Source: Bolinopsis microptera
Lineage: Eukaryota; Ctenophora; Tentaculata; Lobata; Bolinopsidae
Length of the DNA stretch: 60,000 nucleotides
Direction of reading: 5' to 3'
NCBI RefSeq assembly: GCF_026151205.1
Contig: NC_087081.1
Location: 8,057,246 to 8,117,245, forward strand
The translations under genes were made by a program, and so were the position numbers. This document shows, piece by piece, positions 60 through 55,318 of the stretch. Numbering within the stretch: the first letter of the stretch is position 1; every line of letters starts with the position of its first letter. A model generated the notes under the pieces. That model saw only the letters and a list, made by a program, of their open reading frames with translations. It did no database searches and was not told the origin of the DNA.

Positions 60-153
60 GACCAGAGTTGAATGATACAAACCAAGTAACTCCTACCATG
101 TTCAGTATAGACCTTAGAGCAAAGCAACCTGTTAGTCAGGTTATCAAAGTCAG
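60..153 (+). CDS. ITGB: integrin beta exon: hybrid-domain strand leading into beta-I
   Basis: The exon opens after a CAG acceptor in phase 1 and ends at a GTATGT donor. It reads ...QVTPTMFSIDLRAKQP..., matching the conserved QVSPQ..xLxLRPG segment just before the beta-I domain. It is the most 5' exon I can support. The signal peptide and PSI exons must lie before base 1. Confidence 0.85.
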
Positions 154-3100
154 GTATGTTAATTAATCAGTTAGGTTAATTAATTGATTAGCCATTAGAG
201 CATTAGGTATGTCGAATCACAAACATCAAACCGGGTCTCTTTAGATATATATTATTTTTTGTAAGAAGTAGTAAAATATTCTATACCAGTTCAAGTACAA
301 ATGTAAAATATCATTCTCAGACCGGCTGAAGGTTATCCGATAGACTCCTACTACTTGATGGACTTTTCTTATTCTATGAAGGACGATCTGGAAAACTTAA
401 AACTTTTGGCGGGAAACCTGACCGAAGAGTTCAGGAAAGTCAGCGAAGATTTCACGATAGGTATTTACATTTTTAATAGCTCAGCTGTTAAAAGCTGTAT
501 ATAATACCATCATAATTGAGATATTCAAAGTACGAGCTATTGTTAATGTTATTAACTGATTAATATTCTGCGTAAAATAAAATCTTAATATACCAGGTTT
601 TGGAACATTCATCGACAAAAGGATAGCACCTTATTCCTACATGGACCCGGAGAGACTGAAGAACCCTTGCTTTACTGATGAAGTTGATATGCTTACTGGC
701 GAGGTAATGAGTAATGTATAACAGTATAACATTCTCCAGTTTATTAAAAAAACTTAAAGCCTGGTATCCCCGTGTAGGAAAAAACTGTGTTTATAAGATT
801 AAATTGGTGGGATAATTATTCAAAGACCAGAATATTGAAGGTGCTTCCTTATGTGTATGCTTCTTGAAAATACTTTTTACTTATTGTCTTTTTAAGCAGT
901 TGTTATATTTTTAATAGAAATACGTTTTTTTGGTTCTTTCAGTTTCACTATAATATTTTTCAGCCATTCTCGTGTCCGCCATCCTATTCGTTTAGAAATG
1001 AAATGAAGCTGGCAAACAGTCTGGAAACTTTTATAGATACACTTAATAATTTGGGGGTTTCTTCGAACATTGATTTTCCTGAGGGTGGCTTTGAAGCGCT
1101 TTTACAGGTTGCCGCGTGCTACAAAAAGTTAGGTAAGTTTATGAAGTAACTTTTGAATTTTGATTGACATGTGTTTGGACATGTGTTTTTTCTAATTAGT
1201 ATTGGCAATTGTAAAATAGTATTGGCAATTGTGAAAAAAAGACCGATAATAATTGCACTGATAACACACAATCAAACTTAGTTTGTGATCATAAATCATG
1301 TTTTTCCAGCTTATTTTAATAAAATTGCTTCAGCAGGAAAATTACTTTCTGAAAAACAAAAACAAACAAAAAAAACATTTGAAAGTTGAAATGATCGTTA
1401 ATTTTAATCTAAATATTATTGGCAGGATTCAGAGAAAAGTCACGTAAGATAGTAATATACGCGAGCGACGCGGGGATTCACATTGCAGGGGACGGTAAAT
1501 TGGCCGGGTTAGTTAACCCTAATAGTGGGAAATGTAGTCTTGATAAGGAGAATAGGTACTACGAGAAGGCGGAGCAGCAGGATTATCCTACTATTGAGCA
1601 GGTGAGATATATGTTAATTAAGTAATTAATATGTTAATTAAAGTGATTAATATGTTAATATATAATTAGATGGGTGCTACTGATATAATTAACTGATTAA
1701 GGGTCCTTATCCCCATCGGCGGTCTTCTTTTGTGAGTTTGTGCCTTTCCTTAAAATAACCATGATTTATTTATTCATAATATTAATTTATCAATAATATG
1801 CAAATGGTATCTCTATGGTAGAAACTGCATTATACATATGAATTCTGACTAACTAAACCTATGTCGGCCCCCGTTTGCAGTTTCTTCATTTAAATACTTT
1901 ATTCTACCCGGTTTTACTGTGGAACTATTAATAGATCATAAGCAAATTATTCAGGCATTTCAATCGTGTTATTGAAATGAAATGAGGTATTTATATCACG
2001 CTCATATGATTAACCAACATCACAACAAAGGTGGTTAACCATGTCAGATCGGCTGACTGTGAGTGATGTGAGCAAATGTGTAAATGTGAGCAAAAGTATA
2101 ACTCATTAAATTAAAGTATTAACAAGATTATCTTTTACCTTGGGACTCCAGGCTAATAGTTTTTATAAAAGTAAACACTATTGAAGCTGCGGCGGAATGA
2201 GTATGACAGATTGACAGCTGCCATGAGCGCCGCCCAGTAAAATATCTTTAGTACAACTGAAGAACCTGTTGCAGGTGAACCAGATGCTGATCAGAAACAA
2301 CATAATACCGATATTCGCTATAGAGACCGACTACGTAAACCTGTACGAACAGCTGAGTGACCACATGACCCAGCTATCTGATGTGGGGGTCTTGTCACCG
2401 GTAAGTCAGTAACTGACAGTAATTACTAGGGGCTTCTCAGTTAATTTGTAACTTCAGTGGTCAATAAAATCTAAATACCGAACGGCATTCAAAATTAAAA
2501 TATATATTTAGTGAAAAATCAATAAATTAAACATATACCTTACCTGGAGTTTTATGCAAGTTTTCCTAACAAAATCCTCTCATGGTCGGAGTGGAGAACC
2601 ACAGAAAAAACTTTAAGGTCCCTTTGCAAAACATAGAAGCCGTTACACTTACAGTTCACACCGACGCAATAGAAATTTAACAACCAGATTACCTAAATTA
2701 TTGACATTTTGACATTATCAACGCTACACTGTAACAAATGATGTAAGCAAACCAAGGAGCGTGAGAAAAAAGGATAAAAGTTCACACCACATCTGGCCAG
2801 CTAGACCGCTAGAAGACACATAACGGGTTGTTGTTCTAGCTAGACGGCACTTTCCTAATACGTGATGCGGGGATTTTGTTGTTTTGCAGTAGGTCCCCAG
2901 CTAGATAAAAGCTCACAAATATTGGGTTTCTTTTTTGTAAAATAAAGAGATGAAAAAAATCCCCAAATACCATGATTTAATTTGGGGTACGAAATTTGGC
3001 GGTTTTCGGGAAAAATTCCCACATTTTCGTTCCAAAATCATTTAGGTCACCGGAATTATGCCGAACATAAATATTTCTCGTATTATAGTCCGAGTAGTCC

Positions 3101-6100
3101 TCAGTAAGATAAAAGCTGGTCACACCATAAATAAACAATTCGTGATAGATATTGACATACTGGCTAGAGTAAAGAGAGATCTATATCAAAACTGCAACCA
3201 CGATGGTGGAAGCTGGAACGTTACTTTACAGTTGTAACTCCTGGCGCAACCATGAACACTGAATACAGAGACTAAGAACCCTGCTAGACGTTGCACGATT
3301 TCAAAATTACGAAATATAGCGAAATCTAGCTAGAAAATTACAAAATCTAGCTAGAACTACGACCACATCACGTACTCAGAAAGTGCCGTCTATAAGCTAT
3401 TCGTCTAGCTATTCAACGAACAAACCTAAAATTAATACCCTCTTCATGATACATTCTATACTACAAAATAACAAATAATGTAAGCAAACCATGGAGCCTA
3501 CAAAATAAGCCTAGGTTACATTTTTACTTTTTATAGGTTAGAGACCACTTAATAAATATTTCGTCATCCTCTCAAGACACAATTTTAGGTTATTTATACG
3601 TTTCCTAAAAAACATTTTTCATTTTATTAAAAATAAAATTAATTAGCATAATCTCCCAGGATTCCTCAAACATTGTAGACCTTGTCCGAACCGCCCTATA
3701 CCGTATCACATCAACCATCAACCTGGTTATCCTGGACGATCTGGGCTACGTTATCAACATTAAACCACTGTGTCCGGAGAGTGTTCCTAATGGCTGTACT
3801 AATGTTAAACATGGGGAGACGGTACAGTTTGAGGTGAGTAACCATAGTAACACTACCATAGTAACACTACCATGGAAGGTATTATTTACAGCTCGACTAC
3901 TGTTATAGGATTCCTCAATACATTTTTAGCAGTTTATCAAATTAAAGGCCTCTCTTGCTTGATCGGTGGATTTTAACAGTAACGTTTCTATGGTAACTAT
4001 TTCTCGTTACCCAGGTAACGTTCACGTTGGAAAAGTGTAACCCTGACGACCCCCCTGTCAGAGTTATCCCCATTATAATACCCGGTTTTGATACTGTCTT
4101 CGTCACTATTACTCACCAGTGTGACTGCGATTGTTATAGTAGCGTTCCAGGTGAGCTTAGTTTCTGTGATAAGTTGAGATTTGCGATTGCAATATTCTAT
4201 TCAATAATTTTAAATTTCCGCAATGATGAATTTTATCTCCCTGTTCTTATCTGATCGGTGATTGGACGACGTTTTCAGTATCTCTTTCATTATTGTCTTT
4301 ACTTTAGTGTTGATGATACAAATACAAATAACTAAACTGAGTTAGAATAGTGTGTTATATTATATACCCATAACTAAACTTATATATCCACAGTGGCAGG
4401 AGAGGATGTGTGCAGTAACCATGGCAGCAGAGTCTGTGGACCTTGTGAGTGCAGAGACCCTTACTTCGGAGAGGATTGCGAGTGTTCCCCTCGCTACCAG
4501 AAAAGTGATGAACTTTGTAAATCTGATCCTAATACCAACATGGTTAGTATTCACATATTAATATTACCTTATATGGTAATTGGTAGTGTTACCATAGTAA
4601 CAATACCATATTATAAAGTAATACTAACAACTCCCCTCTCTCTCCAGTACTGTTCCCAACAAGGAAGGTGTGAGTGTGGGTAGTGTGAGTGCAGACACCC
4701 GGCAACACCCCCTGGTGTGGAAACCCCTTATATACGGTACGGGGAGTTCTGTGAGTGTTCCAACTACGAGTGCCCTAAGGGGGGTAATGGTAAGGTGAGG
4801 TGATTCAAATTTTATATAGTTTCAATAAATATTTAAAAATTGTGTTTTCTTAAATACTGAATGTGTTTGATGGTTATTTTCGTTTTATTAGTATTACCCG
4901 TTATGTATTATGTTATCAAATACAATAGCGGATGTAAGATCACATTTGTTTTCTTGAAGTTGCATCTTCATCTATAAATCCAATACAATAAAAGTACATT
5001 TTAAGAAATAAGACCAAGCAACGAACTTATTTATCCCGATCAACGAAGATCTTTATTTACTTACAGTTACATCACGTGTAAATAAGTCAACTTATTCCCT
5101 CACCAGATCTGCAGTGGTTAACTTATTTCCTCACCAGATCTGCAGTGGTTAACTTATTCCCTCACCAGATCTGCAGTGGTTAACTTATTTCATCACCAGA
5201 TCTGCAGTGGTTAACTTATTTCATCACCAGATCTGTAGTGGTTAACTTATTCCCTCACCAGATCTGCAGTGGTTAACTTATTTCATCACCAGATCTGTAG
5301 TGGTTAACTTATTTCATCACCAGATCTGCAGTGGTTAACTTATTCCCTCACCAGATCTGCAGTGGGTTAGGAAACTGTAACTGCGGAGAGTGTATCTGCG
5401 AGCAAACAGAGCACGGGGTTCCTAAAGTAGCCACTACGGAGGGGGAAGCGTGTGATTGCGAGCTGGCTTCAGACAAGTGTTATAATCCTTACCCTGACCC
5501 AGGTAGGGGACATAGTGGTGTCAAACATAATTGGAATCTTGTATAAATAGCGTAAATTATTTTAGGATATTGTGAATTCAATAAAAGTAATAATCATTTT
5601 GGGACTTTGTATCCTTGCTAGTATCTGATCTAATGAATTGCTATTAGACTTTATAAATCGAAGATCAACTAATTACAACACTACACATTTGTTACATGTA
5701 TTATTATTGAGGACGTTACAGAATGGATTGATCTAGAGAAGTCCGAGGAGTTCTAACTCTCGGCCTCGCGTCCTAAAATGGTGTTTCTCATGTCTCAAAT
5801 ATGAATCATCACAAAATTTGTTTCTTTCGTCCAATCTGGAAACCATAAACTATACAACAAACACATGATGTAGATACTGTTTCAGAGTTGGAGTCAGGAG
5901 AGTTACCCTGCAGTGGACCTGAACAAGGGGACTGTCAGTGCAACAGGTGTATCTGCAAACCTAACTACAGGTAAACTAATGAACATAAATATAATCAATT
6001 AAATAAATTATATTTCCAAGTGCATTTGCTCCGAATTCCAATCTGCTTCACTTATAAAATCGGAAAAACGCTAAAATCCGGATATTAACTCCAAATTTTC

Positions 6101-9100
6101 GTCAAAATCCATAAATTAACACCTCATTTTTGTGCTCAGAGGTCGATACTGTGAGGAATGTATTTTCTGTGGACCCCTACAATGTAGTACTCATATCGAC
6201 TGTGTACTGTGTCTCTCTGTAAAGTAAGTCAAAACTTTAATATTCTTATATTGATATTATAATGTCCGTTCATTTGTTTGTTTGTTTGTTTGTTTATAGA
6301 ACCCGTCCCCAATCTCGTATCGGAAAATGACTAAACTCAGGTCTGAGTGTGAATACGGGTGGTACCTGCAAGAGTGTTCATTAAGCATTTAGAGTTCTGT
6401 AAAACTGCAGTTACAATTGTGCTAGAGTATTTTTAGTATATACGATTGGTATCAGATTTATATCCCTACATGCTTCCAAAATTTGTAAAGCCGTAGTACA
6501 TACATATCATATTACACCGGAGCCTACACAGTGCAATCTCCTCCAGTCGATCTGCGCCGCGTATGTTTATATAAGCGCGCGGCGCAGACTGGAGGAAACC
6601 ACACACAAGTTCGATCCAGTGCAATGCTACATGTACGTACTACGGCTTCATCTCCAACTTTCTGCACAATGTACTGGAATGTTTTGAATGAAAAGAAAGA
6701 ACAACAAAAATGATATATATAAATAAAATCAGCGATTTAATGTTAGCCTTAGGATGGTAACTTTAATTCCCTGGTTTCTAAAATCAGCTTTAAAAAAAAT
6801 AATAATAAAGTATGTAACGTCGATACCAAACCGATTATTGAGCGATAATAAATGAGTAGTTGATTCCTAAGTTGCGGAGTCATTCAGATGTTCCAGTTTT
6901 TTAATGTGGTTCTTGTTCAGTTCTTGACCAGAAGTGTCTAATGAAGTAAGTCAGACAAGCAAACTCTTCCTTAAATGCTGATATAAGTCGTCTCAATCCC
7001 AGAAATTATGAATGATGACCCAGTGTAAAAGTGCAGAAATCGGCCGAAAATAACAAAGACTAAATACATTTAAAAAGTGACAGGATTCAAACACAAGGAA
7101 AATTAATAACTTAGAGCATAATAAGGAATATCTCCAAACGGAGTTTTCTGAGAGGGTGAGAGGTTCTTTAATTAGAACTAATGATTAAAAGAGACCCACT
7201 AAAGGTACTAAATTAACCGGACTGCTAGCAAGGAATCGAGATTGGGAATAAAAATAAAAGCGGAATAAATTTTAAGATAATGAAACAGAAACTGAAAGCT
7301 AAAATATATACCGTTCTAGAATGCCTCCGCAAACTATTGCTCCTTTCTAATGCACACGTGTTAGTAAGTGTAGTAAAAAGATAAAAATAATAAAGCTATA
7401 AAAATGATCGGAGCGGTGAAAATCTGAGAGGGTGAGAGGTTCTTTAATTAGAACTAATGATTAAAAGAGACCCACTAAAGGTACTAAATTAACCGGACTG
7501 CTAGCAAGGAATCGAGATTGGGAATAAAAATAAAAGCGGAATAAATTTTAAGATAATGAAACAGAAACTGAAAGCTAAAATATATACCGTTCTAGAATGC
7601 CTCCGCAAACTATTGCTCCTTTCTAATGCACACGTGTTAGTAAGTGTAGTAAAAAGATAAAAATAATAAAGCTATAAAAATGATCGGAGCGGTGAAAATC
7701 TGAGAGGGTGAGAGGTTCTTTAATTAGAACTAATGATTAAAAGAGACCCACTAAAGGTACTAAATTAACCGGACTGCTAGCAAGGAATCGAGATTGGGAA
7801 TAAAAATAAAAGCGGAATAAATTTTAAGATAATGAAACAGAAACTGAAAGCTAAAATATATACCGTTCTAGAATGCCTCCGCAAACTATTGCTCCTTTCT
7901 AATGCACACGTGTTAGTAAGTGTAGTAAAAAGATAAAAATAATAAAGCTATAAAAATGATCGGAGCGGTGAAAATCTGAGAGGGTGAGAGGTTCTTTAAT
8001 TAGAACTAATGATTAAAAGAGACCCACTAAAGGTACTAAATTAACCGGACTGCTAGCAAGGAATCGAGATTGGGAATAAAAATAAAAGCGGAATAAATTT
8101 TAAGATAATGAAACAGAAACTGAAAGCTAAAATATATACCGTTCTAGAATGCCTCCGCAAACTATTGCTCCTTTCTAATGCACACGTGTTAGTAAGTGTA
8201 GTAAAAAGATAAAAATAATAAAGCTATAAAAATGATCGGAGCGGTGAAAATCTGAGAGGGTGAGAGGTTCTTTAATTAGAACTAATGATTAAAAGAGACC
8301 CACTAAAGGTACTAAACTAACCGGACTGCTAGCAAGGAATCGAGATTGGGAATAAAAATAAAAGCGGAATAAATTTTAAGATAATATGTCCGTTCATTTA
8401 ATGTCCGTCCAAATAAGGTCCGATAAGGTAATACCTAGTTTACATAACTTGATGCATAGTTTTAACATACTTTGATACCTAATTTACATACTTTTATACC
8501 TAGTTTTTACATACAGTGATACCTAGTTTACATACCGTGATACCTAATTTACATACCTTGATACCTAGTTTTTACATACCGTGATACCTAGTTTTTACAT
8601 ACCGTGATACCTAGTTTACATACCGTGATACCTAATTTACATACCTTGATACCTAGTTTTTACATACCGTGATACCTAGTTTTTACATACCGTGATACCT
8701 AGTTTACATACTTTGATATCTAGTTTACATACCGTGATACCTAGTTTACATACCTTTTTACCTATATTTCAATCTACAAATTCCATGATTCCTCGCCAGG
8801 TTTCCGAAAGCAGAACTTGGGAGGAATGTGGATATCGAACAATACTGTAAACAAGAGTGTGATAACAACGGGGTGAATTACCAGGAAATGGATAAAACTG
8901 TTGATGTAGAAAAATTGAAGAACATGGATTTAGAGGACATGGGCTACCATGAGGTTAGTTTTTAAACTGTTGATGTGGAATAATCGATGGTCATTGAGTA
9001 TCAGCTTTTTAACCGTTTATAATTTTCCTTCCTCTGAAGTGTTTTAGTTATGTGCATTGTAAACTGTAAAAATTTCTTGCACGGTTTTGGTGTTTATTCA

Positions 9101-11987
9101 GTCATTACCTTTTGCTTATACCAAACTTAGCGACGTTAATGTTTTTATTGTTCGGCCACAAAGTACGTTTCGACGATCTCCCTTTGAGAATGGGCACCAA
9201 TATTTTATATTTAAGTACTCCTTTATAATAATAACAGAGTATATTTGTCCCAGGTAGAAGCATGTGGACAGTACGATGATGACGAGTACAACTGCAGGGC
9301 TAATTTCTATATAGCTAAAAAATACATGTCCTCAACAAACTATGAACAGAGTTTGAATATTACGGTCTTCTACGACAAGGAAATCGAGTGCGATGAGTTC
9401 GTGAGTCACTAGTTTGCAAATAGCTTCATTACACCATATAGTCGTTATCGATACATTTATAAATATCGGATTTATTTTCATAGTGTTATTTATGGTGTTA
9501 TTGATGAGTACGTTTCCCGACTGAGTTTCTTTATTTGCTTATTTGAAATTAAAATGTTCGTAAACAACATGTCGCCCTTTTTACAGGCCCTGATATGGAT
9601 TATTTTACTAATCGTTGGAGCAATAGTTCTGTTGGGTCTCTTTATACTCCTGGCATGGAAGTGTTGGACCACATACGCCGTGAGTTACTTTATCGAACAT
9701 TATCTGACCGTACATTTTGTGAACGGACTTTATTTGAACGGACATTAAAATGAACGCTAGGGCCTCCAGCGTCCAATTAATGTCCGTTCAAGTAAAATCC
9801 GATAAGGTACTTAATTCGTGTTCATAGAAATGAATTAAAAACACGAAAGTGTGTGGTAAATATTGTTGAACAATTTGACTTTGTAAATATAATCATGTAC
9901 ATCTCGTAGCTTAATTTGGTCAGTGAAGTACCTTGATGTATACCTGTGTTCAGGACAAAAAACTCTATGCTAAGTTTGAAGAAGATATGGCAGCTGCGAA
10001 GTGGAATACCACCCAGAGGTAAGATTAACAAAAGTCACGCGATATAAAAGTCACGTGATATAACAGTAACGTGGTATAAAAGTCACGTGATATAAAAGTA
10101 ACGTGATATAAATGGCACGTGATATAACAGTAACGTGATATAAAAGTAACGTGATATAACAGTAACGTGGTATAAAAGTCGCGTGATATAAAAGTCACCT
10201 GATATAAATGGCACGTGATATAAAAGTCACATGGTATAAAAGTCACGTGATATAAAAGTCACGTGATTTAAAAGTCACGTGATATAAAAGTCACGTGATA
10301 TAAAAGTAACGTGATGTTGCTGATTTAGCTGTGATCGCTGTTGCTGATCTTACTATGTTACTATAAGTATAACACAAAACTCTTGATTATATGCTCATAT
10401 AAAAAACACGGGAAAAACATTTTCCAACAGCAATTATACCTACCAAAGTTAATTAACAAACAGTTTAACAGGTTCTTTCAGTGTTTGGCTGCAAATCAGC
10501 ATTCAGCATATTATAATCCTACGATGCTATTAATATGCTGAATATAATTTAATACTGCTGAAGTTTGTAATATTTTAAGGCTTTCTTCTCAACTGATGAG
10601 ATGTACATATTATTATTTTTAAGTGTATATTATGTTATAATATTATGTTATAATATTATGTTATAATATAATGTTACAATATTATGTTATAATATTATTT
10701 TATAATGTTATGTTATAATATTATATTTATACATACTATGTGTGTATTATTTTACAACTTTATTATATTTTTTATTATTGCTATAACCTTTTCAGTCCGA
10801 TCTATGAAAAACCCATTACAGTGCACACCAACCCTCTTTTCGTAAAGGACTGATAATTTTAGGTTAAACATTTTGAATGCACTTAATGTACGCATTATGG
10901 TTTGTGTTAATTATTGTGATAATGTACGGGATGATGATTAATCACTCTACACTCGACTGTAACTTTTTCAACCCGTTCTTTAGCTGGCCCTATCCTAACC
11001 TCCTCTAATTTGATCCCAACCCTAACCCTAACCCAATCCCTAACAAAAGCATTTGCTGAAACCCTAACCCTAACGAGAAATTATACCAACTTCCTTATAC
11101 GGTCATATCACGTGATCGAGACAATTGTTTGCCAATATCTCGCCAGGGGAGCATTTTAACCCTATGTCATGGCCTCATGGGGGTGATTCGGAATCAGCGT
11201 CCGAAAATACACCGATTCTAAATGGTTTCAACTGTCGGGGGTCCTTCTAGAAAAATCTCGAAGAACGAGTGTAGAGTGATTTAGCACGCTTGTAATGTAC
11301 GCACTATGGTTTGTGTTAATTATTGTAATTTTCCATCGTTATAAAAAATAAATTGTGTGGGTTGCATCCATTGTTTGGATTTTCAGGTTTTGGGTGTTTT
11401 ACTTAAATAGTGTTTCGATCAAGAGAAAAGAATCAGTCATATCTGTGATCATTTGATAAAGGATGGTTCAAAGAAGTGTCGTGCATTTTATTTCGTTGTG
11501 TTCACAATCAGTGGCGTAACGAAGAGTTCCACCGACCCCGCTGTGCGGGGGGCGCCAAATCGTCGTTTGAATGTGGGACAATTTTGAAAAACTTAACTAT
11601 GGTACTTGCAAAACTGCGTGTTTTGCTCTAGAAACACACTTTTTTAGAAACTTTACCGGCAACAGGCAACGTTACGCCACTGTTCACAATAATTCACAAA
11701 GCATTACTTACATTGTACTATTATTATAAATCGTGTGTAATTCAAAAATTCGAAGGATTGGGGCTTTCAACATCATTAAAAAAATTCATTGTGATTTTTA
11801 TACACGTCCGTTATAGTTTTCAGCACGTTGTAATTTAACATAAGGACAATTATGTTTTATGTAAAATGATGGATAATTAATTAAATTGTCAAAAATACTA
11901 ACAGCTCAACCTTTCAGTCCGATCTACAAAAAAGCTACAACAATTCATTCAAATCCTTTATTTCCAGTTCCGGAAACTGATTTATGA
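60..11987 (+). CDS. ITGB: integrin beta subunit gene, 5' partial, about 18 exons
   Basis: This encodes the beta chain of an integrin, the heterodimeric adhesion receptor that binds matrix ligands outside the cell and talin-type adaptors inside. Coding exons read on the plus strand: 60-153, 321-460, 597-703, 964-1132, 1426-1601, 2275-2400, 3660-3833, 4015-4150, 4394-4542, 4648-4794, 5355-5502, 5886-5970, 6140-6223, 8800-8953, 9254-9400, 9587-9679, 9954-10018, then either 10796-10853 or 11918-11987. All junctions are GT-AG and the phases match. The order is hybrid, beta-I, hybrid, four I-EGF, beta-tail, membrane helix, cytoplasmic tail. The start codon, signal peptide and PSI domain lie upstream of the window. 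Two oddities are an in-frame TAG at 4681-4683 and duplicated last exons. The family call is near certain. Whether this allele makes a full protein is not. Confidence 0.95.
321..2400 (+). CDS. ITGB: integrin beta exons: beta-I domain with MIDAS, ADMIDAS and SyMBS
   Basis: Five exons (321-460, 597-703, 964-1132, 1426-1601, 2275-2400) encode the ligand-binding beta-I domain. The first has YYLMDFSYSMKDD, which supplies the DxSxS MIDAS residues and the ADMIDAS acidic pair. The second begins GFGTFIDK and contains a cysteine of the specificity-determining loop. The third closes that loop and has NIDFPEGGFEA, the synergistic metal-site motif. The fourth has ASDAGIHIAGDGKLAG, the usual (T/S)DAGxHxAGDG block. 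The fifth has NNIIPIFAIE. All metal ligands I can see are intact, so this domain looks functional. Introns are 136-673 bp. Confidence 0.95.
2733..3500. mobile_element. putative MITE with imperfect inverted repeats in integrin intron
   Basis: A segment near 2838-2868 (agacggcactttc...acgtgatg) recurs inverted near 3360-3393. Direct repeats of about 30 bp (aatgatgtaagcaaaccaag and aataatgtaagcaaaccatg) flank the whole at 2736 and 3473. No ORF is inside. This resembles a non-autonomous DNA element or a segmental duplication in the 1.26-kb intron. The ends are uncertain. Confidence 0.45.
3660..4150 (+). CDS. ITGB: integrin beta exons: end of beta-I and second hybrid segment
   Basis: Exons 3660-3833 and 4015-4150. 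The first begins DSSNIVDLVRTAL, the conserved DSSNIVxLI helix at the end of beta-I. The second encodes VTFTLEKCNPDD...PGFDTVFVTITHQCDCDC, the hybrid strand ending in the CxCxC that starts the I-EGF stalk. Both have clean GT-AG borders (donors GTGAGT and GTGAGC). Confidence 0.92.
4394..4542 (+). CDS. ITGB: integrin beta exon: I-EGF module 1
   Basis: A cysteine-rich exon reading CSNHGSRVCGPCECRDPYFG..., the CSxxGxxxCGxCxC signature of an integrin EGF module. It joins the previous exon in phase 1 and ends in phase 0 before GTTAGT. Other reading frames are also open here but have no homology pattern. Confidence 0.92.
4648..4794 (+). CDS. ITGB: integrin beta exon: I-EGF module 2 with in-frame TAG
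   Basis: The exon reads CSQQGRCECG, then TAG, then CECRHPATPPGVE...YGEFCECSNYECP. Both sides of the stop match the I-EGF pattern CSGxGxCxCGxCxC, and both acceptor (CTCCAG) and donor (AAG|GTGAGG) are good. The stop (4681-4683) sits at the variable residue between two conserved cysteines. A single C-to-T change from CAG would explain it. Taken at face value the protein would end in the stalk, before the membrane. Explanations are a null allele, a pseudogene in early decay, or a base error. Confidence 0.88.
5086..5366 (+). repeat. 31-bp minisatellite of the intron/exon 3' splice junction, nine copies
   Basis: The segment tcaccagatctgcagtggtt recurs with a period of 31 bp. ACCAG falls at 5102, 5133, 5164, 5195, 5226, 5257, 5288, 5319 and 5350. 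Each unit has a pyrimidine tract, the CAG acceptor and the first 11 bases of the I-EGF3 exon. The last copy is the true exon start. Some copies carry CTGTAG instead of CTGCAG. Confidence 0.95.
5355..5502 (+). CDS. ITGB: integrin beta exon: I-EGF module 3
   Basis: It encodes ICSGLGNCNCGECICEQTE..., the third I-EGF module. The acceptor CAG at 5352-5354 is the last of nine tandem copies of the same junction. Only after this ninth copy does the reading frame continue into the rest of the exon. The donor is GTAGGG in phase 1. Confidence 0.92.
5886..6223 (+). CDS. ITGB: integrin beta exons: I-EGF module 4
   Basis: Exons 5886-5970 and 6140-6223 encode LPCSGPEQGDCQCNRCICKPNY and RGRYCEECIFCG. This is the fourth stalk module leading into the beta-tail. 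The second exon ends in phase 2 at a GTAAGT donor. The next exon is 2.6 kb away because a satellite array occupies the intron. Confidence 0.9.
6535..6600. other. GC-rich hairpin in integrin intron
   Basis: ctccagtcgatctgcgccgcg is followed after about 16 bases by cgcggcgcagactggag. The arms pair over about 17 bp with a three-base bulge. It stands out in AT-rich intron sequence and may be a fragment of a small transposon. Confidence 0.5.
7147..8384. repeat. 276-bp satellite, 4 full copies plus a partial
   Basis: Units start at 7147, 7423, 7699, 7975 and 8251 with tctgagagggtgagaggttc. The fifth breaks off at 8384. Copies are virtually identical (I see one C/T difference, in the fifth), so the amplification is recent. 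The array lies in the integrin intron between 6223 and 8800. It abuts a transposon end at 8385. Confidence 0.95.
8385..8432. mobile_element. half copy of the ACCTTATCGGAC MITE family
   Basis: atgtccgttcatttaatgtc...aaggtccgataaggta is the right end of the MITE family seen at 9688, 19318, 24509, 26031 and 53892. It starts exactly where the 276-bp satellite stops. Confidence 0.6.
8436..8760. repeat. 21-23-bp minisatellite in integrin intron
   Basis: About 15 imperfect copies of tacctagtttacataccgtga, varying in the number of T residues. The array ends about 40 bp before the exon acceptor at 8799. Confidence 0.85.
8800..9400 (+). CDS. ITGB: integrin beta exons: beta-tail domain
   Basis: Exons 8800-8953 and 9254-9400 encode the membrane-proximal beta-tail region. 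It holds paired cysteines (EQYCKQECDNNG, EACGQYDDDEYNC) and ends ...NITVFYDKEIECDEF just before the membrane. Phases are 2-0 and 0-0. The order and spacing relative to the membrane exon fit the family, although sequence identity is modest, as is usual for this domain. Confidence 0.88.
9587..10018 (+). CDS. ITGB: integrin beta exons: transmembrane helix and membrane-proximal tail
   Basis: Exon 9587-9679 encodes a hydrophobic helix of about 23 residues followed by WKCWTTYA. Exon 9954-10018 encodes DKKLYAKFEEDMAAAKWNTT, close to the family consensus DRREFAKFExExxxAKWDT that binds alpha-chain tails and talin. The second exon ends in phase 2 (AG), which either of two downstream last exons can complete. 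Confidence 0.93.
9688..9809. mobile_element. MITE of the ACCTTATCGGAC family
   Basis: The left half is a degraded ctttatcgaacattatctga with gaacggacttt, the centre is gaacgctagggcctccagcg, and the right half ends gtaaaatccgataaggta. The halves are inverted relative to each other. It lies 9 bases after the splice donor of the membrane exon. Confidence 0.65.
10033..10316. repeat. 17-bp CACGTG minisatellite
   Basis: About 17 copies of aaagtcacgtgatataa or close variants (aacgtg, cacctg). Most units hold a CACGTG E-box palindrome. The array begins 15 bases after the splice donor of the last shared integrin exon. Open frames across it are by-products of the period. Confidence 0.92.
10620..10735. 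repeat. AT-rich ttataatattatg microsatellite
   Basis: Tandem, slightly irregular copies of a 12-13-bp AT-only unit, upstream of alternative last exon A. No coding signal. Confidence 0.85.
10796..10853 (+). CDS. ITGB: integrin beta alternative last exon A
   Basis: After TTTTCAG the exon completes a serine codon and reads SPIYEKPITVHTNPLFVKD, then TGA. It has the two phospho-acceptor motifs of integrin tails, here SPIY and NPLF in place of NPxY. A possible polyadenylation signal AATAAA lies at 11347-11352, before exon B. Confidence 0.88.
10941..11282. mobile_element. small TIR element with telomere-like repeats inside
   Basis: The ends aatcactctacactcg and cgagtgtagagtgatt are perfect inverted repeats. 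Inside at about 11017-11075 are several ccctaa hexamers, the metazoan telomere motif. The element lies between direct repeats of about 33 bp (aatgtacgcattatggtttg... at 10884 and 11292). No ORF. Confidence 0.6.
11509..11682. mobile_element. hAT-type MITE with 8-bp target duplication
   Basis: A 174-bp element with perfect 13-bp terminal inverted repeats, cagtggcgtaacg and cgttacgccactg. The direct repeats ttcacaat at 11501-11508 and 11683-11690 are an exact 8-bp target duplication. Both features are diagnostic of the hAT superfamily. It is non-autonomous and lies between the two alternative last exons. Confidence 0.93.
11918..11987 (+). CDS. ITGB: integrin beta alternative last exon B
   Basis: After CCTTTCAG the exon joins in the same phase and reads SPIYKKATTIHSNPLF followed by PVPETDL and TGA. 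It is clearly a duplicate of exon A, with the same two motifs and four extra C-terminal residues. Alternative splicing or polyadenylation would give tails differing in the residues around the kindlin/PTB-binding motif. Confidence 0.87.
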
Positions 11988-17327: not shown

Positions 17328-20300
17328 CTGAAAATGAATTACATAATTTTTATTGTGGTGCAATCAAACTTAGTTTATTGGTTCAAATATGTATTTTTTC
17401 AATGATGTTTGTGCAAGTTTACAGACACTTAATTTACGTCGTAAGTCCTATCTAGTCTACCTGCCGAAACCATAGAACATGTATTACAAAAAGCATTGCA
17501 ATGCTTCGAATAAGGTGATAAATTGACATATTTACCGCATTTTGTTCGATCTTCGTTTGCTTGAGATCCTTGAGGACAAGCAGTACACAATCCCGAACTC
17601 TCTGTACTGTATGTGTTAAGAGGACATTGTTGACACTCTGCCATAGAACTGTCTTTGTAGGTACCCGCCGGACAGGAAACTAAAAAGGTTATCAACAATA
17701 AGGCAGTTGCCTGCAGTTGGTTCTATTTTTATTGTAAAATAAATCATTACCCTGATTATGAATGACTCTTCTTGTTACTGAGTAATTAATCAATTAATTA
17801 ATTAATTAATTACTTAATCATCGAATCTGGACGTTGCCGTTAAAGTTAGGATTTGATATTTGATCGATAAAATCCTACAAATAAGTAACAACTACTAGGT
17901 AACAGTTCAAATCCCAATACTCACCACAATCGGTTTTATCAGAGTTAGTGTCTTTTCCTATCCCGCAAGTGCTGCAAGAATCATATCCTGCAGCACTGAA
18001 TGTTCCTACTTTACATTTGGAACAGGTTGCAGATCCACCAGCACTATATTTCCCAGCTTCGCATTCAGAACAGGTTGCAGATCCAGCAGCACTATATTTC
18101 CCAGCTTCGCATTCAGAACAGGTTGCGGATTCTGCAGCACTATATTTCCCAGCTTCGCATTCAGAACAGGTTGCAGATCCAGCAGCACTATATTTCCCAG
18201 CTTCGCATTCAGAACAGCTTGCAGATCCACCAGCACTATATTTCCCAGCTTCGCATTCAGAACAGGTTGCAGATCGTGCAGCACTATATTTCCCAGCTTC
18301 GCATTCAGAACAGGTTGCAGATCCCGCAGCACTATATTTCCCAGCTTCGCATTCAGAACAGGTTGCAAATCCCGCGGCACTAAATTTCCCAGCTTCGCAT
18401 TCCGAACAGGTTGCAAATCCTGCAGCACTATATTTCCCAGCTTCGCATTCAGAACAGGTTGCAAATCCCGCGGCACTAAATTTCCCAGCTTCGCATTCAG
18501 AACAGGTTGCAGATCCCGCAGCACTATATTTCCCAGCTTCGCATTCAGAACAGGTTGCAGATCCAGCGGCACTATATTTCCCTGCTTCGCATTTGGAACA
18601 GGTTGCAGATCCCGCTGCACTGAATTTCCCAGCTTCGCATTCAGAACAGGTTGCAGATCCATTACTGAATTTTCCAGCTTGACATTCTGCAACAGCTGAA
18701 AAAATGAAGTATAAAGATTATATCATTTTCCAATGGGAAATAGTTCACAATTTTTTAAATCTTCTCCGATAGGTATATGTTGCACAGGTTGCTTTAAAAG
18801 TCTTGCAAGGATTTACTTTTTGTATAAGTATAACTCCTTAAGACGTGAACAACGGTGAAAGAAGTTTCATTGGGTATGGGTGGTTATGGTGAATTTGAGT
18901 ATAAGAGGTTGCGTTGCTATGACTGTGTATAGCTAAAGAACCAGTTATGGTTGCTATTATATTTAGAAATATAAATTGGACCTTATTAGTCACGTGCTAT
19001 ACCAATGCGCGTTTTAAACTTTGACAGTCTATAACTCTTAGGCCAATAAAGTAATTATGTTCATATTTTGTCAGCAATATGAGTTATGGCTGTTTGAAAT
19101 ATACGATGAACACGCGGGTGCCCATTGTCTCTACGTTTTTCCAGGTCAAACCAAGGGTATGCATATTTTCTCTGAAAGAAAAATATCGTACTTGATCAAA
19201 CTTGCCGAGTGACTTTTTAAAGGGCTGTGTTTTTAAGCAATATATAATTGTCAATTTTGACGATAACTTTACAATTCAATATTTTACAAATACAATGACT
19301 ACTGTGTAGTATAATGATTACCTTATCGGACTTTCTTTGAACGGAAACAAGTTGAACGCTTGAGGCCCTAGCGTTCATTGTAATGTCCGTTCAAAATAAT
19401 GTCCGTTAACGCAATGTCTGGTCAAATAACGTCCGATAAGGTAAGTTATAATTATTCTAATGTACATAATTATTAAAACAATGTTTATTATTACATGTTT
19501 AATAACGGCAAATGAATAATATCCCCGCTTCATGGTTAGGTGTGTTTTCACACATATTTCACTATATAGCAAACAGTGTAAATATCATACCTGCCAATAA
19601 TAAAACAAAAGTTAATAAAACAAAAGTTAAATTTATTACCAATTATTCAATCAATACATATCATAAATTCTAATATTGGAAACACAATGCAAAATGGGTG
19701 TCTTAAACTATAATTTTGTTGTGACTAATAATCTATTGACTTTCAAAGTTGAATTTTAGTTAAGTATGAAATGCCACCACATCATAGTTAGGGTAAAATG
19801 TTATTTTTAAGTTTTAAAATTGAGAAGATTGCTCTATGGCTTAAAATTTAAAATTCTAGCAAAAGATATCTTATTTTTAAATAGTTGGTTACAGTTTATG
19901 ACAGTACTGGCATGACTAGTTTTATTGTGGCTGGTAAAAGGACCCAGTTGCCTGTAAGGGCTTTACCGAACCCCAGGGGACCACAATGTGATAAGATCAG
20001 GCCAGATGTTTCTATGTAGAGCAATTTATTTATTTTGGAGCTATGGTTATATGATATTGCTGGTGGTCATGTTTAAAGGTCAGTTTATCCTTGTGTGCTA
20101 ATTATCCATCCAGATGCTTAGTGATGTGGGTAAATCATGCCCTTCTACGATATATAATGTTTGACCATAAATTTGTTTTTACCACATAAACTGTGGCACT
20201 AATGTCAATTAACAATATTTACATTCATTGATATTTAAAGCGTGTTTTTTCCCCAGCACTACTACACAACAAAAACCTGTCGGCCCACCGAGGAAACACG

Positions 20301-32285: not shown

Positions 32286-34300
32286 AACAGAGAGGCGTGT
32301 TATGTATCAATAATCCGTTGCGCCATTATTTGGGGGTGTTATTGTTTGATACTCCGCATCAGATTACCGTAGTACTGTAGTAGTAGATTCGGGTCACCAA
32401 ATGCATTATCTCCGCTCTTTATTATGAGTTTTATATGAGTTTATGAAGCTTTTATTTTTAGTCGATTTGTGTTCAGATGAAGTGCTCGAATGGTTAACTT
32501 TCATTAGTTGCAGCACTGACCACTGATTCATCATTTCAGTGATTTCTTTCTATTGTTATCATTTTATTTTAGCCATTTATAAATTTTAGTCCACACTCTC
32601 TGGTTCGTAGGACTAACCCCCTACAGCTAGTATAGTGCCTCGGCACAGAGTGGCTTAGGGTTACTGAAAAGGAGATAAGCACCTCAGGCCATCCCAACGT
32701 TCGGGAGAGACCTGCCCTTGTATCTTGTGTTGTATAAATTTATAAAGTTATGAATTTATGAATTAACGAATTTATAAATTTATGAATTTATGAATTTATG
32801 AATTTATGAATTTATGAATTTATGAATTTATTAATTTATGAATTTATGAATATATGAATTTAGGAACTTATGAATTTAAGAATTACGAATGTATAAATTT
32901 ACGAAATTACGAATTTAAGGATTTATGAATTTATGAATTTATGAATTTATAAATTTATGAATTTACGAATTTATGAATTTATGAATTTATGAATTTATGA
33001 ATTTATGAATTTATGAATTTATGAATTTATGAATTTATGAATTTATGAATTTATGAATTTATGAATTTATGAATTTATGAATTTATGAATTTATGAATTT
33101 ATGAATTTATGAATTTATGAATTTATGAATTTATGAATTTATGAATTTATGAATTTATGAATTTATGAATTTATGAATTTATGAATTTATGAATTTATGA
33201 ATTTATGAATTTATGAATTTATGAATTTATGAATTTATGAATTTATGAATTTATGAATTTATGAATTTATGAATTTATGAATTTATGAATTTATGAATTT
33301 ATGAATTTATGAATTTATGAATTTATGAATTTATGAATTTATGAATTTATGAATTTATGAATTTATGAATTTATGAATTATGAATTTATGAATTTATGAA
33401 TTTATGAATTTATGAATTTATGAATTTATGAATTTACGAATTTACGAATTTACGAATTTATGAATTTATGAATTTATGAATTTATGAATTTATGAATTTA
33501 TGAATTTATGAATTTATGAATTTATGAATTTATGAATTTACGAATTTATGAATTTATGAATTTATGAATTTATGAATTTATGAATTTATGAATTTATGAA
33601 TTTATGAATTTATGAATTTACGAATTTATGAATTTATGAATTTATGAATTTATGAATTTATGAATTTATGAATTTATGAATTTATGAATTTATGAATTTA
33701 TGAATTTATGAATTTATGAATTTATGAATTTATGAATTTATGAATTTATGAATTTATGAATTTATGAATTTATGAATTTATGAATTTATGAATTTATGAA
33801 TTTATGAATTTATGAATTTATGAATTTATGAATTTATGAATTTATGAATTTATGAATTTATGAATTTATGAATTTATGAATTTATGAATTTATGAATTTA
33901 TGAATTTACGAATTTATGAATTTACGAATTTATAAATTTATGAATTTATGAATTTATGAATTTATGAATTTATGAATTTATGAATTTATGAATTTATGAA
34001 TTTAAAATTTCGATACTCATAATTCTCGAATGGAAGCCCAATGATAAATAAAATGTACATTGTTTGGTACTGGGTCAAGAAATAAGTCGTCTCTCCTAGA
34101 AAACAAATACTCCGTCACAGTCGACTTTAGAGTGTATAACATATTGTATGTTAATACCTATAATATACCCTCAAAAATAAAAATAAACATAGTAATTACG
34201 TATAAACGGATTCACGATTCTAGGAACTTACAATTCATTTAGTTTAAAGAATTAAAAAAAAAATACTTCCCCAAATTAAAATAATAACAATAAGGTTATT
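32286..34300. repeat. large repeat unit, copy 1, with 8-bp satellite core
   Basis: The left flank (gtatcaataatccgttgcgc ... ttattttagccatttataaa) matches 54278-55108. The right flank (ccaatgataaataaaatgta ... aaaactatttttgatcgaaa) matches 59670-60000. Between them is the satellite. A piece at 32600-32735 (cctcggcacagagtggctta ... gggagagacctgcccttgta) is absent from copy 2 and looks like a LINE 3' end inserted here. Confidence 0.82.
32742..34003. repeat. 8-bp satellite (atgaattt)n, array 1
   Basis: About 1.26 kb of atgaattt units with scattered variants (acgaattt, ataaattt, one 7-bp unit near 33376). The edges are more diverged than the middle. Confidence 0.97.
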
Positions 34301-47232: not shown

Positions 47233-50200
47233 CTGCAATAACACGTATTACCTATACAGTACTTTTATAATATGCAACTAACGATATTTTTAACTGGCTA
47301 CCGTACGAACACTAAAGTTGATGTTACAAAACAGTTTTAATAATTTCAATTATTATATTGCAAATAATTTGAGCTAGCCTGATGGTATTCAGAGAGCATT
47401 AATGTAATGTGCTTCGAGCTGGTCACAAGTCCAAACGCCATCAATTCATTTTCATTTTAATAACCCTATGTAGTTATTGACTACTGATGCCCCACGAAAA
47501 ACCTCACCGAACCTCCACGCGGTGTGGGGTGGGTGGCTCGAACGGGAGGTGCATGGGTGTTTCTAACCTATGCAAAGGAAGGGACTAGCCATCTCTACAA
47601 CAAGGAAAGGCTCTAATAGCCTCTATTAACCTTAGAACCGCAGCATAACAGCTTCCCACAGGCAAATAACACCTTCTGCAGGAAACTAACACGCTCACAG
47701 GCCCCCACATGACGTGTAACCCCAGGATTTGGTTTTCGATCGGACACTGAAAACAACGATAGAGGAGCGGTCTACACGCTCACAAGCTACCACGTCTCGT
47801 GTAACCCCAGGATTTGACACGTTCACAGGCTACCATGTCTCGTGTAACCCCAGGATTTGGTTTTGGATCGCACACTCAAAACAACGATAGAGGAGCGGTC
47901 TACACGTTCACAGACTACCACGTCTCGTGTATCCCCAGGATTTAACACGCTCACAGGCTACCAAGTCTCGTGTAACCTTAGGATTTAACACGCTCACAGG
48001 CTACCACGTCTCGTGTAACCCTAGGACTCTAACACTTAACAGACTCTAACACGCTCACAGGCTTCCACGTCTCGTGTACCCTAGGATTTGGTTTTGGATC
48101 GGACACTCAAAACAACGATAGAGGAGCGGTCTACACGTTCACAGACTACCACGTCTCGTGTAACCCCAGGATTTAACACGCTCACAGGCTACCATGCCTC
48201 GTGTACCCTAGGATTTTGTTTTGGATCGGACACTCAAAACAACGATAGAGGAGCGGTCTACACGCTCACAGACTACCACGTCTCGTGTAACCCCAGGATT
48301 TAACACGCTCACAGGCTACCAAGTCTCGTGTAACCTTAGGATTTAACACGCTCACAGGCTACCACGTCTCGTGTAACCCTAGGACTCTAACACTTAACAG
48401 ACTCTAACACGCTCACAGGCTTCCACGTCTCGTGTACCCTAGGATTTGGTTTTGGATCGGACACTCAAAACAACGATAGAGGAGCGGTCTACACGCTCAC
48501 AGGCTACCATGTCTCGTGTAACCCCAGGATTTTACACGTTCAAAGGCTACCACGCCTCGTGTACCCTAGGATTTGGTTTTGGATCGGACACTCAAAACAA
48601 CGATAGAGGAGCGGTCTACACGCTCACAGGCTACCATGTCTCGTGGAACCCTAGGATTTAACACGCTCACAGGCTACGACGTCTCGTGTAGCCCTAGGAC
48701 TCTAACACTTAACAGACTCTAACACGCTCACAGGCTTCCACGTCTCGTGTACCCTAGGATTTGGTTTTTGGATCGGACACTCAAAACAACGACATAGGAG
48801 TGGTCTACAGTTACAGGAACATTGCATACTCCTACGAGTTGCATGTAGCAGGCCATGACCGTCCCTGGAAGTCCCTGTCTCCTCATTGTTAACCCGTAAG
48901 GGGTTGCACCAGGGGCGGTGGTAACAGAACTTCAAGACTCTCCGAGTCTGTTGTCGATATCTATGTATAATATAATCATAATTCATACGGAGGAGCCCTA
49001 CTCAAATCAGATCACAAGCCTGTAGTCGCTCGCGTCACACTCCACCAGAAGTACCTTGTCCATAAGAAGCACAAGACGTCCAGAAAGCTTGATCTCAAGA
49101 AACTACAAGATCATGGAGTTAAGAAGAAGATGCTGAGTACGTTTGAGAAGAAAGTAAGAATGAGACCCAAGACAGGCAACCCCAACGATGACCTCAACAA
49201 CCTGATAACAGATGCCTATAACACTGCTGACGAGGTGCTAGGAACTATACCTCCAAAAAAGCACAAATCCTTCAGTACTGATCCTGAGATCGCTGAACTG
49301 TCACTTGAACGCAAGCAGCTGATGATTGCGAATATGCAGAACAAATTCCCGACCAACAGGAAGCATGTCAAGACCAACATCAACCAGCTAAGACGTAAGA
49401 TCACAAAGAGACTCAGAGATATCAACAACCGCAGTGCTGACACACTCGTCGAAGAGATAAACAACACAGATGACGCCCGGAGATACTTTGGAGCCTCTAA
49501 GATACTCGCCAAAGGATATGTTAGACCAGCTCTAACCGTCCACAACTCTGCTGGGAATATCGCAGGTACTAATGAGGAGAAAGCGAGGATTATTAAGGAG
49601 TACTTTGAAGCTGAGTTCAACGACGCTGATGAGCCTACCCTTCCTGCCTTCCTTGACCCCCCATCTAGCCTTAACAGTCCCATCACCGTTACAGAGATAG
49701 AGAGAGCCATCAGTAAACTCAAGTCTGGTAAAGCAGTGGGTATTGATAAAGTTCCAGGCGAGGTCATGAAAGCCCTGAACAACCCCCTCCTTCATGAAGA
49801 GCTAGCTAAAGTGTTCAACGAGTCTTTCGAGAAAAACATTCACATCGAAGCAATAGGAGCAGGCATCCTCACACCACTGGCTAAGCCTGGTAAAACTCGT
49901 GGCCCAGTTAAGTCGATACGACCATTGACCCTGCTGAATGTTTCTAGAAAGATCCTGTCACTGATAGTGCTAAACAGAATAGAGAGAGCTGTGGACAACT
50001 TCACCGGACCGTTCCAAGCTGCCTACAAAGCTGGCAGGAGCTGTGCCGACCTAGTTTGGGCACAGAGCATGCTCATATCTGTAGTAATGAAGAAGAAGTT
50101 TGAATGGAACAAAGTGAGTATCGACATGTCAGCTGCCTTCAATACCATCCGCAGAGGTACAACAATCAGACTACTAGAAGCTGCAGGATGCTCCAGAGAC

Positions 50201-51634
50201 GACCTAAGGCTTGTACAATACCTCATGGCTAACACCACTCTAGTAGTCAGAGTGTGTTCTACTGACTCAGAGATGTTCTCTTTCAACATAGGAGCCTCCC
50301 AAGGAGACAGCACAGCTGGTAAATTGTTTACCCTCAATCTAGCTGGAGCTGTAGTGCACATAAGAGCAGTCCTCCCCTCAAGACCCAACCCTCCGATAGC
50401 CGATAACCACACGCCTCTTGAGTCCGGCTATTCAGACGATGTAGAGGAGATTGGTGAAGACATGGAGGAGTTACAGGATATCTTTCAGATCTCCAAGAAT
50501 ATTCTCAGTGAATGGAGTCTCTTTGTCAATGACACAAAGACAAAGTTTACCAGAGTGTACTTGGAAGAAGTTGGTGCCTGTGACGAGTGGGGTAATGAAC
50601 TAAGAGGAAAAGAGGAGTGGAGAAACGAGACGCTTCTTGGTACTAAGCTTGGATCAGAGCAGGATGTTACTAATAGAATAAATAAAGCTAACTCTGCCTT
50701 CTGGTCATTTGACAAGCTGTGGTGCCAGGGATCAGAGAGGAGTCAGATAACTGAGAAGATAAAGATCAAACTCTACGACTCACTAGTAGTATCAGTGCTC
50801 CTGTACAACTGCTGCTGCTGGGCCGTACCTCAGCATGTTCTAGAGTCTGTAGATGTTGTTCAGAGGAAGCACCTCAAGCGCATCCTACACATCTATTGGC
50901 CTAGCTCAATATCTAACAAGGCCCTCTACGCTCGTACCCAGACCAGGCCCCTTTCCGAGAGAGTGGAAAAGGCACGGTGGACAATGCTAGGTCATGTTCT
51001 ACGCAGTGACAACGACACGCCTGCCTACCAGTCTCTGTTATTTGCTACACTAGGATGTCAAACACTAAAGGGACGAGTGGGTAGACACAGGACTAATTTA
51101 TATGATATTATTGTGAAAAAGGACCTATTTAAGAGACAAATTTATTTGAAAAATGAAGATGATTTTACCAACTTAGTGAACTTAGCAAGAGATAGAGTAG
51201 GATGGAGGAGTTTATTTACTTTGAGACATATTGAACGAATGAGTCTTCGTAAGCGTAAATAGGCCAGCACTTTGCTGAGCCTCTTTATGTGCTCTTTTGT
51301 TTATAGATGTTATTATATATATAATATATAACTTGGGAGTCTCTCTCTCTAGTGCAGCAGGAGTTGGAGAATGGGGACGCGTTGTGAAAGCCACCGCAAG
51401 GAAGGCTTACAGTCGACGCCGACCAATCAAAAGAAAGACTACTGATGCATAGGTTTATAAAAGTATAAAACAAGATTTATTGAAGAAACGCGTCAATATT
51501 CATTACTAATCTGCGTTACTCAAACATTATTAAAGTGAGAAAGTAATCATTTAAGAGCAATCATTTATATGAAACCTACCACATTGAGCAGAAGAGAAGA
51601 GTAGGTGAAGCGTTAGTAGAAGAAATATCGACAT
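46804..51634 (-). CDS. partial paralogue of the lectin-like/CCP gene
   Basis: Two exons remain: 51580-51634 encodes the signal peptide MSIFLLLTLHLLFSSAQC, and 46804-47232 encodes the lectin-like domain (KRERLAGEIVP, TIDLDLNTHSYTEPGSDGKS, WLKVTLDQVHCVEQVMWL, CSIRDCSTCEGTYC). Exon lengths, phases and splice sites match those at 23742 and 23075. Intron 1 carries a 3.9-kb retroelement on the opposite strand. I see no ephrin-like or CCP exons downstream, so this is a truncated duplicate or it encodes a short secreted lectin-like protein. Confidence 0.72.
47700..48790. repeat. tandem repeats of the retroelement 5' region, second copy
   Basis: Built from the same building blocks as 30715-31590, with blocks of about 360 bp repeated (compare 48058-48180 with 48416-48540). 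Open frames here are by-products. Confidence 0.9.
49130..51262 (+). CDS. non-LTR reverse transcriptase ORF, 710 residues
   Basis: Polymerase of a LINE-type element, which copies element RNA at a nicked target. Palm motif A is SIDMSAAFNTI with D332, motif B is GASQGDSTAGKLF, and motif C is YSDD (D436-D437) instead of the common YADD. The thumb region has WSLFVNDTKTKFTRVY and the tail has RKHLKRILHIYWPSSISNKA then MLGHVLR. The same frame is open upstream from about 48960 and includes LKSDHKPVVARV, the SDH end of an APE endonuclease, but the rest of the endonuclease is missing. No stop or frameshift interrupts the polymerase. I do not assign a clade. Confidence 0.92.
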   Translation: MLSTFEKKVRMRPKTGNPNDDLNNLITDAYNTADEVLGTIPPKKHKSFSTDPEIAELSLERKQLMIANMQNKFPTNRKHVKTNINQLRRKITKRLRDINNRSADTLVEEINNTDDARRYFGASKILAKGYVRPALTVHNSAGNIAGTNEEKARIIKEYFEAEFNDADEPTLPAFLDPPSSLNSPITVTEIERAISKLKSGKAVGIDKVPGEVMKALNNPLLHEELAKVFNESFEKNIHIEAIGAGILTPLAKPGKTRGPVKSIRPLTLLNVSRKILSLIVLNRIERAVDNFTGPFQAAYKAGRSCADLVWAQSMLISVVMKKKFEWNKVSIDMSAAFNTIRRGTTIRLLEAAGCSRDDLRLVQYLMANTTLVVRVCSTDSEMFSFNIGASQGDSTAGKLFTLNLAGAVVHIRAVLPSRPNPPIADNHTPLESGYSDDVEEIGEDMEELQDIFQISKNILSEWSLFVNDTKTKFTRVYLEEVGACDEWGNELRGKEEWRNETLLGTKLGSEQDVTNRINKANSAFWSFDKLWCQGSERSQITEKIKIKLYDSLVVSVLLYNCCCWAVPQHVLESVDVVQRKHLKRILHIYWPSSISNKALYARTQTRPLSERVEKARWTMLGHVLRSDNDTPAYQSLLFATLGCQTLKGRVGRHRTNLYDIIVKKDLFKRQIYLKNEDDFTNLVNLARDRVGWRSLFTLRHIERMSLRKRK

Positions 51635-54522: not shown

Positions 54523-55103
54523 CCAATGGGTATTTTTTTGTGAAAATTGATTTCGAGATAGTAATCGCCAACCGCCAAACGGTGCCCGCGGGGCAGCCAC
54601 GCCCATATTTGGTCCAAATTAGGCCCAATTTGGCCAAATACCCTGAACATGCCCAAAACCCAGGTTTAAAAACATTTTCGTGCAAAAATTTTGAAAACTG
54701 ATAGAGTTATTTCCAAATTAATGAAATCAATTCCGCGAATATCGCTAAATACGGGCTAAATACGGGCAATTTAGTTCATTTTTGGGGTATTTTCGCCTTA
54801 GTGTCCACATTTAAACAGATGTAAAGCAATAACTTACAGAGAATATGTAGTTTAGGTTTACCTTTCATATAAAGTAAGTCTCATTCAAAAATATTGATAT
54901 TTGACTAATTTATGGGACGAAATCTACCAAATTTGATGCGTATGCCCAAATATGGACATATGGTTTTTGGCTCACAACTCAGTCATTTTTAAGATTTTAA
55001 GATGAATTAGTGCTCGAATGTTAACTTTCATTAGTTGCAGCACTGACCACTGATTCATCATTTCAGTGATTTCTTTCTTTTGTTATCATTTTATTTTAGC
55101 CAT

Positions 55104-55318
55104 TTATAAATTTATGAATTTATGAATTTATGAATATATGAATATATGAATTTATGAATTTATGAATTTATGAATTTATGAATTTATGAATTTATGAATT
55201 TATGAATTTATGAATTTATGAATTTATGAATTTATGAATTTATGAATTTATGAATTTATGAATTTATGAATTTATGAATTTATGAATTTATGAATTTATG
55301 AATTTATGAATTTATGAA
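55104..55318. repeat. 8-bp satellite (atgaattt)n, left part of array 2
   Basis: About 215 bp of atgaattt units with two atgaatat variants at the left, ending exactly where the LINE sequence begins. Confidence 0.95.

Follow-up and report, generated by a model that had tools for sequence, protein, structure and literature searches.

The window analysed here, a stretch of 60,000 nucleotides from the ctenophore Bolinopsis microptera, contains 18 exons of an integrin beta gene and, across one of the gene's 3' splice junctions, a minisatellite that repeats the junction nine times. The main features are listed below; in motifs, a slash marks a splice junction or the join between two repeat units.

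60..10852, plus strand: integrin beta gene; the window holds 18 of its exons, the stop codon finishing at 10853, and its earlier exons must be upstream, outside the window
4648..4794, plus strand: preceding exon (I-EGF2), 147 nt, symmetric (phase 0-0); in-frame TAG at 4681-4683
4795..5354, plus strand: intron with the array, donor AAG/GTGAGG
5089..5367, plus strand: junction-spanning minisatellite of the mirage type (see below), nine 31-bp units, the last merging into the exon
5355..5502, plus strand: I-EGF3 exon, coding for ICSGLGNCNCGECICE..., phase 0 in and phase 1 out

The 18 exons were picked by homology and by their AG and GT edges and then joined by a script. Together they form a single integrin-beta frame across 17 GT-AG introns, with the TAG as its one interruption; the residue aligned there in ITGB2 is Gln. 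The product has a VWA domain, I-EGF modules, a transmembrane segment (exon 9587-9679, judged by eye) and an NPxY-type tail, as expected of an integrin beta. Pfam matches include the Integrin_beta VWA domain (PF00362, 2e-85), the cytoplasmic domain (PF08725, 2.3e-11) and integrin EGF (PF23105, 4.2e-9), and the EGF region can be aligned with ITGB2 (5.4e-13), placing NGK/ICSG opposite NGQVCGG. A first-pass annotation of the window had assigned the repeated junction to an integrin acceptor, which the VWA match and the ITGB2 alignment bear out. The module at 5355-5502 is one that we take to be I-EGF3, by analogy with ITGB2.

The TAG may be a polymorphism, an erroneous base or the mark of a null allele. 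Because the exon that carries it is 147 nt long with phase 0-0, it could be skipped in frame.

Other parts of the gene and window can be described briefly. Two alternative-looking terminal exons with related tails, 10796-10853 (SPIYEKPITVHTNPLFVKD-stop, acceptor score 9.18) and 11918-11987 (SPIYKKATTIHSNPLFPVPETDL-stop, 8.1), point to a possible choice of cytoplasmic tails. An intron of the gene holds a 276-bp unit in 4.5 copies with 99% matches (7147-8385), by appearance a very recent expansion. Just upstream of the window, a 76-bp array of 11.7 copies (positions 1-887 of locus L008) ends close to CTTCAG/GTGCGCTGACTCC, possibly the acceptor of a further exon at the 5' side of this integrin gene; if so, the array may cover that acceptor. 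The candidate exon has no Pfam match. Three separate arrays of one 8-mer (rotations of TATGAATT) lie at 32733-34004, 55102-55319 and 58411-59660, two of them over 1.2 kb, and a 48-bp repeat of 13.4 copies at 18020-18661 falls in an open minus-strand frame and encodes a Cys-rich CSECEAGKYSAAGSAT repeat. The long frames at 48971-51262 and 56407-58334 resemble LINE-type reverse transcriptases, going by motif.

The 31-bp array and its acceptors

TRF places the array at 5089-5365, with period 31, 8.9 copies, 94% matches and a score of 484. The units start at 5089, 5120 and so on to 5337, at a spacing of exactly 31, and each contains a pyrimidine tract, a CAG and the first 11 bases of the integrin-beta I-EGF3 exon. 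The CAG ends lie at 5106+31k, up to 5354, and ATCTG(C or T)AGTGG then follows in every unit. Between any two units, 0-4 of 31 positions differ (mean 5.6%); four types occur among the first eight. When the pattern is sought in the 265-Mb assembly, outside its N-masked stretches and allowing 3 mismatches at most, 8 matches are returned, all within the array, and a reversed control returns 0; the locus is a single match in the assembly, and one haplotype is sampled. The TRF result and the array-only matches rule out a chance or dispersed repeat. The extent agrees within 3 bp with that given in the first-pass annotation (5086-5366, nine 31-bp units), and the composition of the unit that it described, with eight decoys ahead of the real acceptor, is confirmed by the periodicity and the reading frames.

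In Adh3 and globin genes of amphioxus, intron/exon boundaries that are duplicated in the manner of minisatellites are described as ‘mirages’ (PMC3087553). In the integrin array, too, the intron and exon sides of the junction, as placed by homology and frame, both lie inside the unit, and the genic copy is the one at the exon edge (copy 9; the other eight CAGs lead to a stop after four codons). By these sequence features, the array is a real example of a mirage-type minisatellite. Its acceptors are the following:

5104..5323, plus strand: eight decoy acceptors, CAG ends at 5106, 5137, 5168, 5199, 5230, 5261, 5292 and 5323
5299..5300, plus strand: only frame-preserving upstream AG, exon from 5301, +54 nt = 18 aa; score -0.23, very weak
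5352..5354, plus strand: expected authentic CAG acceptor, copy 9, sole CAG of the nine that continues the integrin frame; score 8.29

For a functional protein, splicing is expected at the CAG at 5352-5354, because the continuous integrin frame and the ITGB2-homologous junction need copy 9. Sites were scored with matrices built on 64 acceptors and 66 donors of integrin genes in the B. microptera genome. From upstream to downstream the decoys score 8.82, 8.41, 8.29, 6.8, 6.8, 8.29, 6.8 and 6.8; four of the eight thus equal or exceed the real site, which itself falls at the 45th percentile of the 64 integrin acceptors. The real site is not singled out by local motif strength.

Joined to the phase-0 donor at 4794, every one of the eight CAG decoys reads ATC, TGC or TGT, AGT, GGT and TAA (Ile-Cys-Ser-Gly-stop), with the stop arising at the repeat join, where GTGG/TTAA takes the place of GTGGGTTAG at the true exon. 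Each decoy would therefore, on paper, produce the premature stop from an alternative splice choice that characterizes a poison exon. The intron has 28 upstream AGs (exon starts 4815 to 5354), and for just one of them, the weak site at 5299-5300, does the frame stay open to 5502. The first-pass annotation had reasoned that most decoys would shift the frame, 31 not being a multiple of 3; the arithmetic is right (two of the eight CAG decoys do keep the register) but irrelevant, since all eight meet the TAA. Its suggestion of length variants is not borne out, every CAG decoy ending in ICSG-stop and the sole open alternative being so weak, and we reject length variants via CAG decoys. Its other suggestion is that the array could tune splicing efficiency; the amphioxus precedents report normal splicing in spite of their arrays. 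The in-frame TAG and the recurrence of junction arrays elsewhere in the genome are absent from that annotation. The score of the best GT within the repeated unit is 4.37 and that of the true donor 8.61 (one exon-edge GT, at 5366, has 5.81), so that new exons made from units look unlikely here.

Arrays at other splice junctions

The window protein was aligned, with splicing, to four of five paralogous integrin loci (L014 was left out), and eight doubtful exons were removed before the counts (one in L011, three in L012 and four in L013); the remaining paralogue boundaries may be partly off. Two other families, Sushi and LDLa, were not chosen for arrays, and their junctions were predicted by the integrin-derived matrices, not from transcripts. 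The Sushi set has 60 predicted junctions, of which 59 were counted, a threshold excluding the L034 acceptor (score below 0, one copy); some Sushi loci may have no junction (for example L042, with an open frame of 979 aa), and some loci overlap or look like recent duplicates, so the rates are rough. The LDLa set uses 21 of 30 loci, the 9 with frames of at least 400 aa having been skipped. Arrays were measured by how many times the 24-mer spanning a junction occurs in its surroundings, and the comparison sites are positions 60 nt into the introns and positions on the exon side.

At least three copies are found at 5 of 133 integrin junctions, one in the window gene and four in a single paralogue, L010 (C7). 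The arrays of L010 (175-657, 737-2607, 2731-3045 and 4510-9450) include both ends of one exon, and its junctions are as follows:

L010 donor 210: 7 copies
L010 acceptor 2576: 33 copies
L010 donor 2755: 6 copies
L010 acceptor 9399: 76 copies of a 65-bp unit over 4.9 kb

The same threshold is reached at 3 of 59 Sushi junctions (L029 donor, L039 acceptor and L041 donor; L037 has two copies) and 1 of 42 LDLa junctions (L065 acceptor, 18 copies). The pooled count is 9 of 234 (95% interval 1.8-7.2%), or 8 of 199 without the window gene and 4 of 101 for Sushi and LDLa alone. Positions 60 nt into the intron carry such arrays in 27 of 233 cases, and exon-side positions in 5 of 234. The difference between junction and intron has a Fisher p of 0.0017 (0.04 for Sushi and LDLa alone), values that are optimistic given that four of the nine cases cluster in L010 and that Sushi loci overlap. 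With a threshold of at least two copies, the counts become 10/234 (junction), 34/233 (intron) and 7/234 (exon side). Arrays are rarer at the sampled junctions than in the neighbouring intron, and the idea that they seek out splice junctions is rejected on that ground. We read junction arrays as chance overlap in a repeat-rich genome, partly removed by purifying selection; within the window, TRF arrays of period at least 7 cover 9,002 of the 60,000 bases.

Use of the decoys in the other arrays would mostly lead to stops as well (acceptors 31/32, 75/75, 5/5 and 17/17; donors 6/6, 2/2 and 1/2), the exception being L010 donor 2755, where all five decoys are open and in frame. Because this is what reading into an intron predicts, the stops at the window array are no evidence of design. 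A few per cent of all junctions in this ctenophore might lie inside minisatellites, each with up to dozens of decoys, in which case the genome would be a natural experiment, and variation in copy number would feed splicing noise and the birth of introns on a wide scale; we put this at somewhat below an even chance.

Two further observations come from the same loci. In L016, a 13-bp, 29-copy array (1110-1486) ends 6 nt before a predicted Sushi exon (from 1493) and resembles a repeated branch-point and pyrimidine region that lacks an AG. Of the 150 LDLa matches that were scored, many, frequently to model positions 5-37, fall within frames some 1,000 aa long that are spread over many contigs; such frames may be a transposon family with an LDLa-like stretch.

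Origin, alternatives and known systems

We consider it probable that the array is a tandem-duplicated, mirage-type minisatellite in which copy 9 works and the decoys are tolerated. A 31-bp segment over the 3' splice junction would have been duplicated in tandem, and the array would then have expanded by slippage or unequal exchange. The ninth copy, as the only one contiguous with the body of the exon, would be the working acceptor, and the upstream copies would be competent-looking decoys, a transcript spliced to one of their CAGs stopping after four codons to give a truncation or NMD product, not a protein variant. Exon definition and NMD would hide such decoy use, with splicing running mainly via copy 9, and the array would be tolerated rather than selected. 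The structure, the reading frames, the comparable motif strength and the similar arrays at other homology- or motif-defined junctions are what we observe; we read the array as a tolerated mirage because its periodicity is exact, because the continuous frame needs copy 9 and because other junctions carry arrays. In the amphioxus precedents, splicing is reported to be normal. From the DNA, it is most likely that the array is largely neutral and the exon-adjacent copy used. Some decoy use is plausible, since the real acceptor is matched or outscored by four decoys, and the normal output of this allele, judged by its codons, is not to be taken for granted, given the in-frame TAG one exon upstream.

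A regulatory function would make the decoys poison acceptors, used appreciably and perhaps according to copy number, so that early stops set the integrin dose, as in a splicing VNTR. The scores of half of the decoys and the immediate in-frame stop that follows all eight would suit such a regulator; however, decoy stops are common in the other arrays too, as expected from intron, and the amphioxus Adh and TnC mirages are reported to generate no aberrant mRNAs (PMC3902484). We regard this regulator as unlikely. Another candidate is relaxed constraint, in which the TAG one exon upstream inactivated the gene or allele, and a gene that is dying gathered the array by drift. The TAG is indeed the one break in the frame, at a position that is Gln in ITGB2, but GT-AG is kept at all 17 introns and no stop interrupts the remaining 17 exons, the cytoplasmic tail included, so that any gene loss would be recent, polymorphic or a base error. 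Moreover, the TAG exon is skippable in frame and similar arrays lie at predicted junctions of other genes, and such drift seems quite improbable.

The RNA itself might also mask the decoys, an 8-nt palindrome, CAGATCTG, across each junction pairing them with one another and leaving the last acceptor exposed. The array is predicted to fold more stably than 100 dinucleotide shuffles (z -3.98), and under each of three settings the last AG ranks first of the nine in predicted accessibility. The pattern is absent, however, from four other acceptor arrays, where the last copy ranks 4-19 of 33, 17-31 of 76, 5-6 of 6 and 7-18 of 18 across the three settings; when the downstream exon is shuffled, the last copy ranks first in just 19 of 40 cases, and 21% of 150 arrays made from a shuffled unit fold as stably. 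Self-masking as a general rule is rejected by its absence from those four arrays, and for the integrin array we judge it very improbable.

Classical experiments on splice-site competition duplicated one or two sites in plasmids. Here a single genome contains natural 3- to 76-fold junction duplications, of which five belong to one gene family, and ordinary RNA-seq could reveal their outcome. If the rate holds, the B. microptera genome would contain many natural tests of splice-site competition, and if a few per cent of junctions truly lie in arrays, a large natural experiment on how the spliceosome chooses the exon-adjacent copy. Mirages would also be extended from amphioxus to a ctenophore, which bears on whether they are a general by-product of minisatellite-rich genomes and whether they offer a route to intron gain. 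New here are the presence in a ctenophore, the finding of such arrays at about 4% of the junctions sampled, the 76-copy extreme and, at this locus, the stop after every CAG decoy. Among the matches listed in the literature searched (titles and abstract openings), no report of mirages in ctenophores was found.

In tandem alternative acceptors of the NAGNAG type, several nearby AGs compete. The integrin array shares this competition, but its alternatives are whole units with their own pyrimidine tracts, and whereas NAGNAG choices make small changes to the protein, the CAG alternatives here lead to stops.

The closest relatives of the array are the amphioxus mirages in Adh3, BflGb6, BflGb9 and TnC, with similar repeats in lancelet PGBD5; TnC and PGBD5 are added by PMC3902484. 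All are short tandem repeats across an intron/exon boundary, on the acceptor or the donor side, often with duplicated AG or GT signals, and the genic copy adjoins the exon body, as in the integrin gene. The unit differs in length, with 31 bp here, 10-72 bp in Adh3 and about 150-160 bp in the globins (PMC3087553). The BflGb6 mirage has 6 units in one haplotype and 3 in another, Adh3 is somatically unstable, and splicing is said to appear regular (PMC3087553); the integrin array, known from the DNA of one haplotype, differs in its ctenophore host, where a paralogue reaches 76 copies. It is a real array of the kind already described in amphioxus, and likely near-neutral. In a Rogers-type model of intron gain by tandem AG/GT duplication, as cited in PMC3087553, a duplicated acceptor could in principle become an exon or intron; the low score of the best GT in the integrin unit, set against that of the true donor, makes such new exons look unlikely at this junction.
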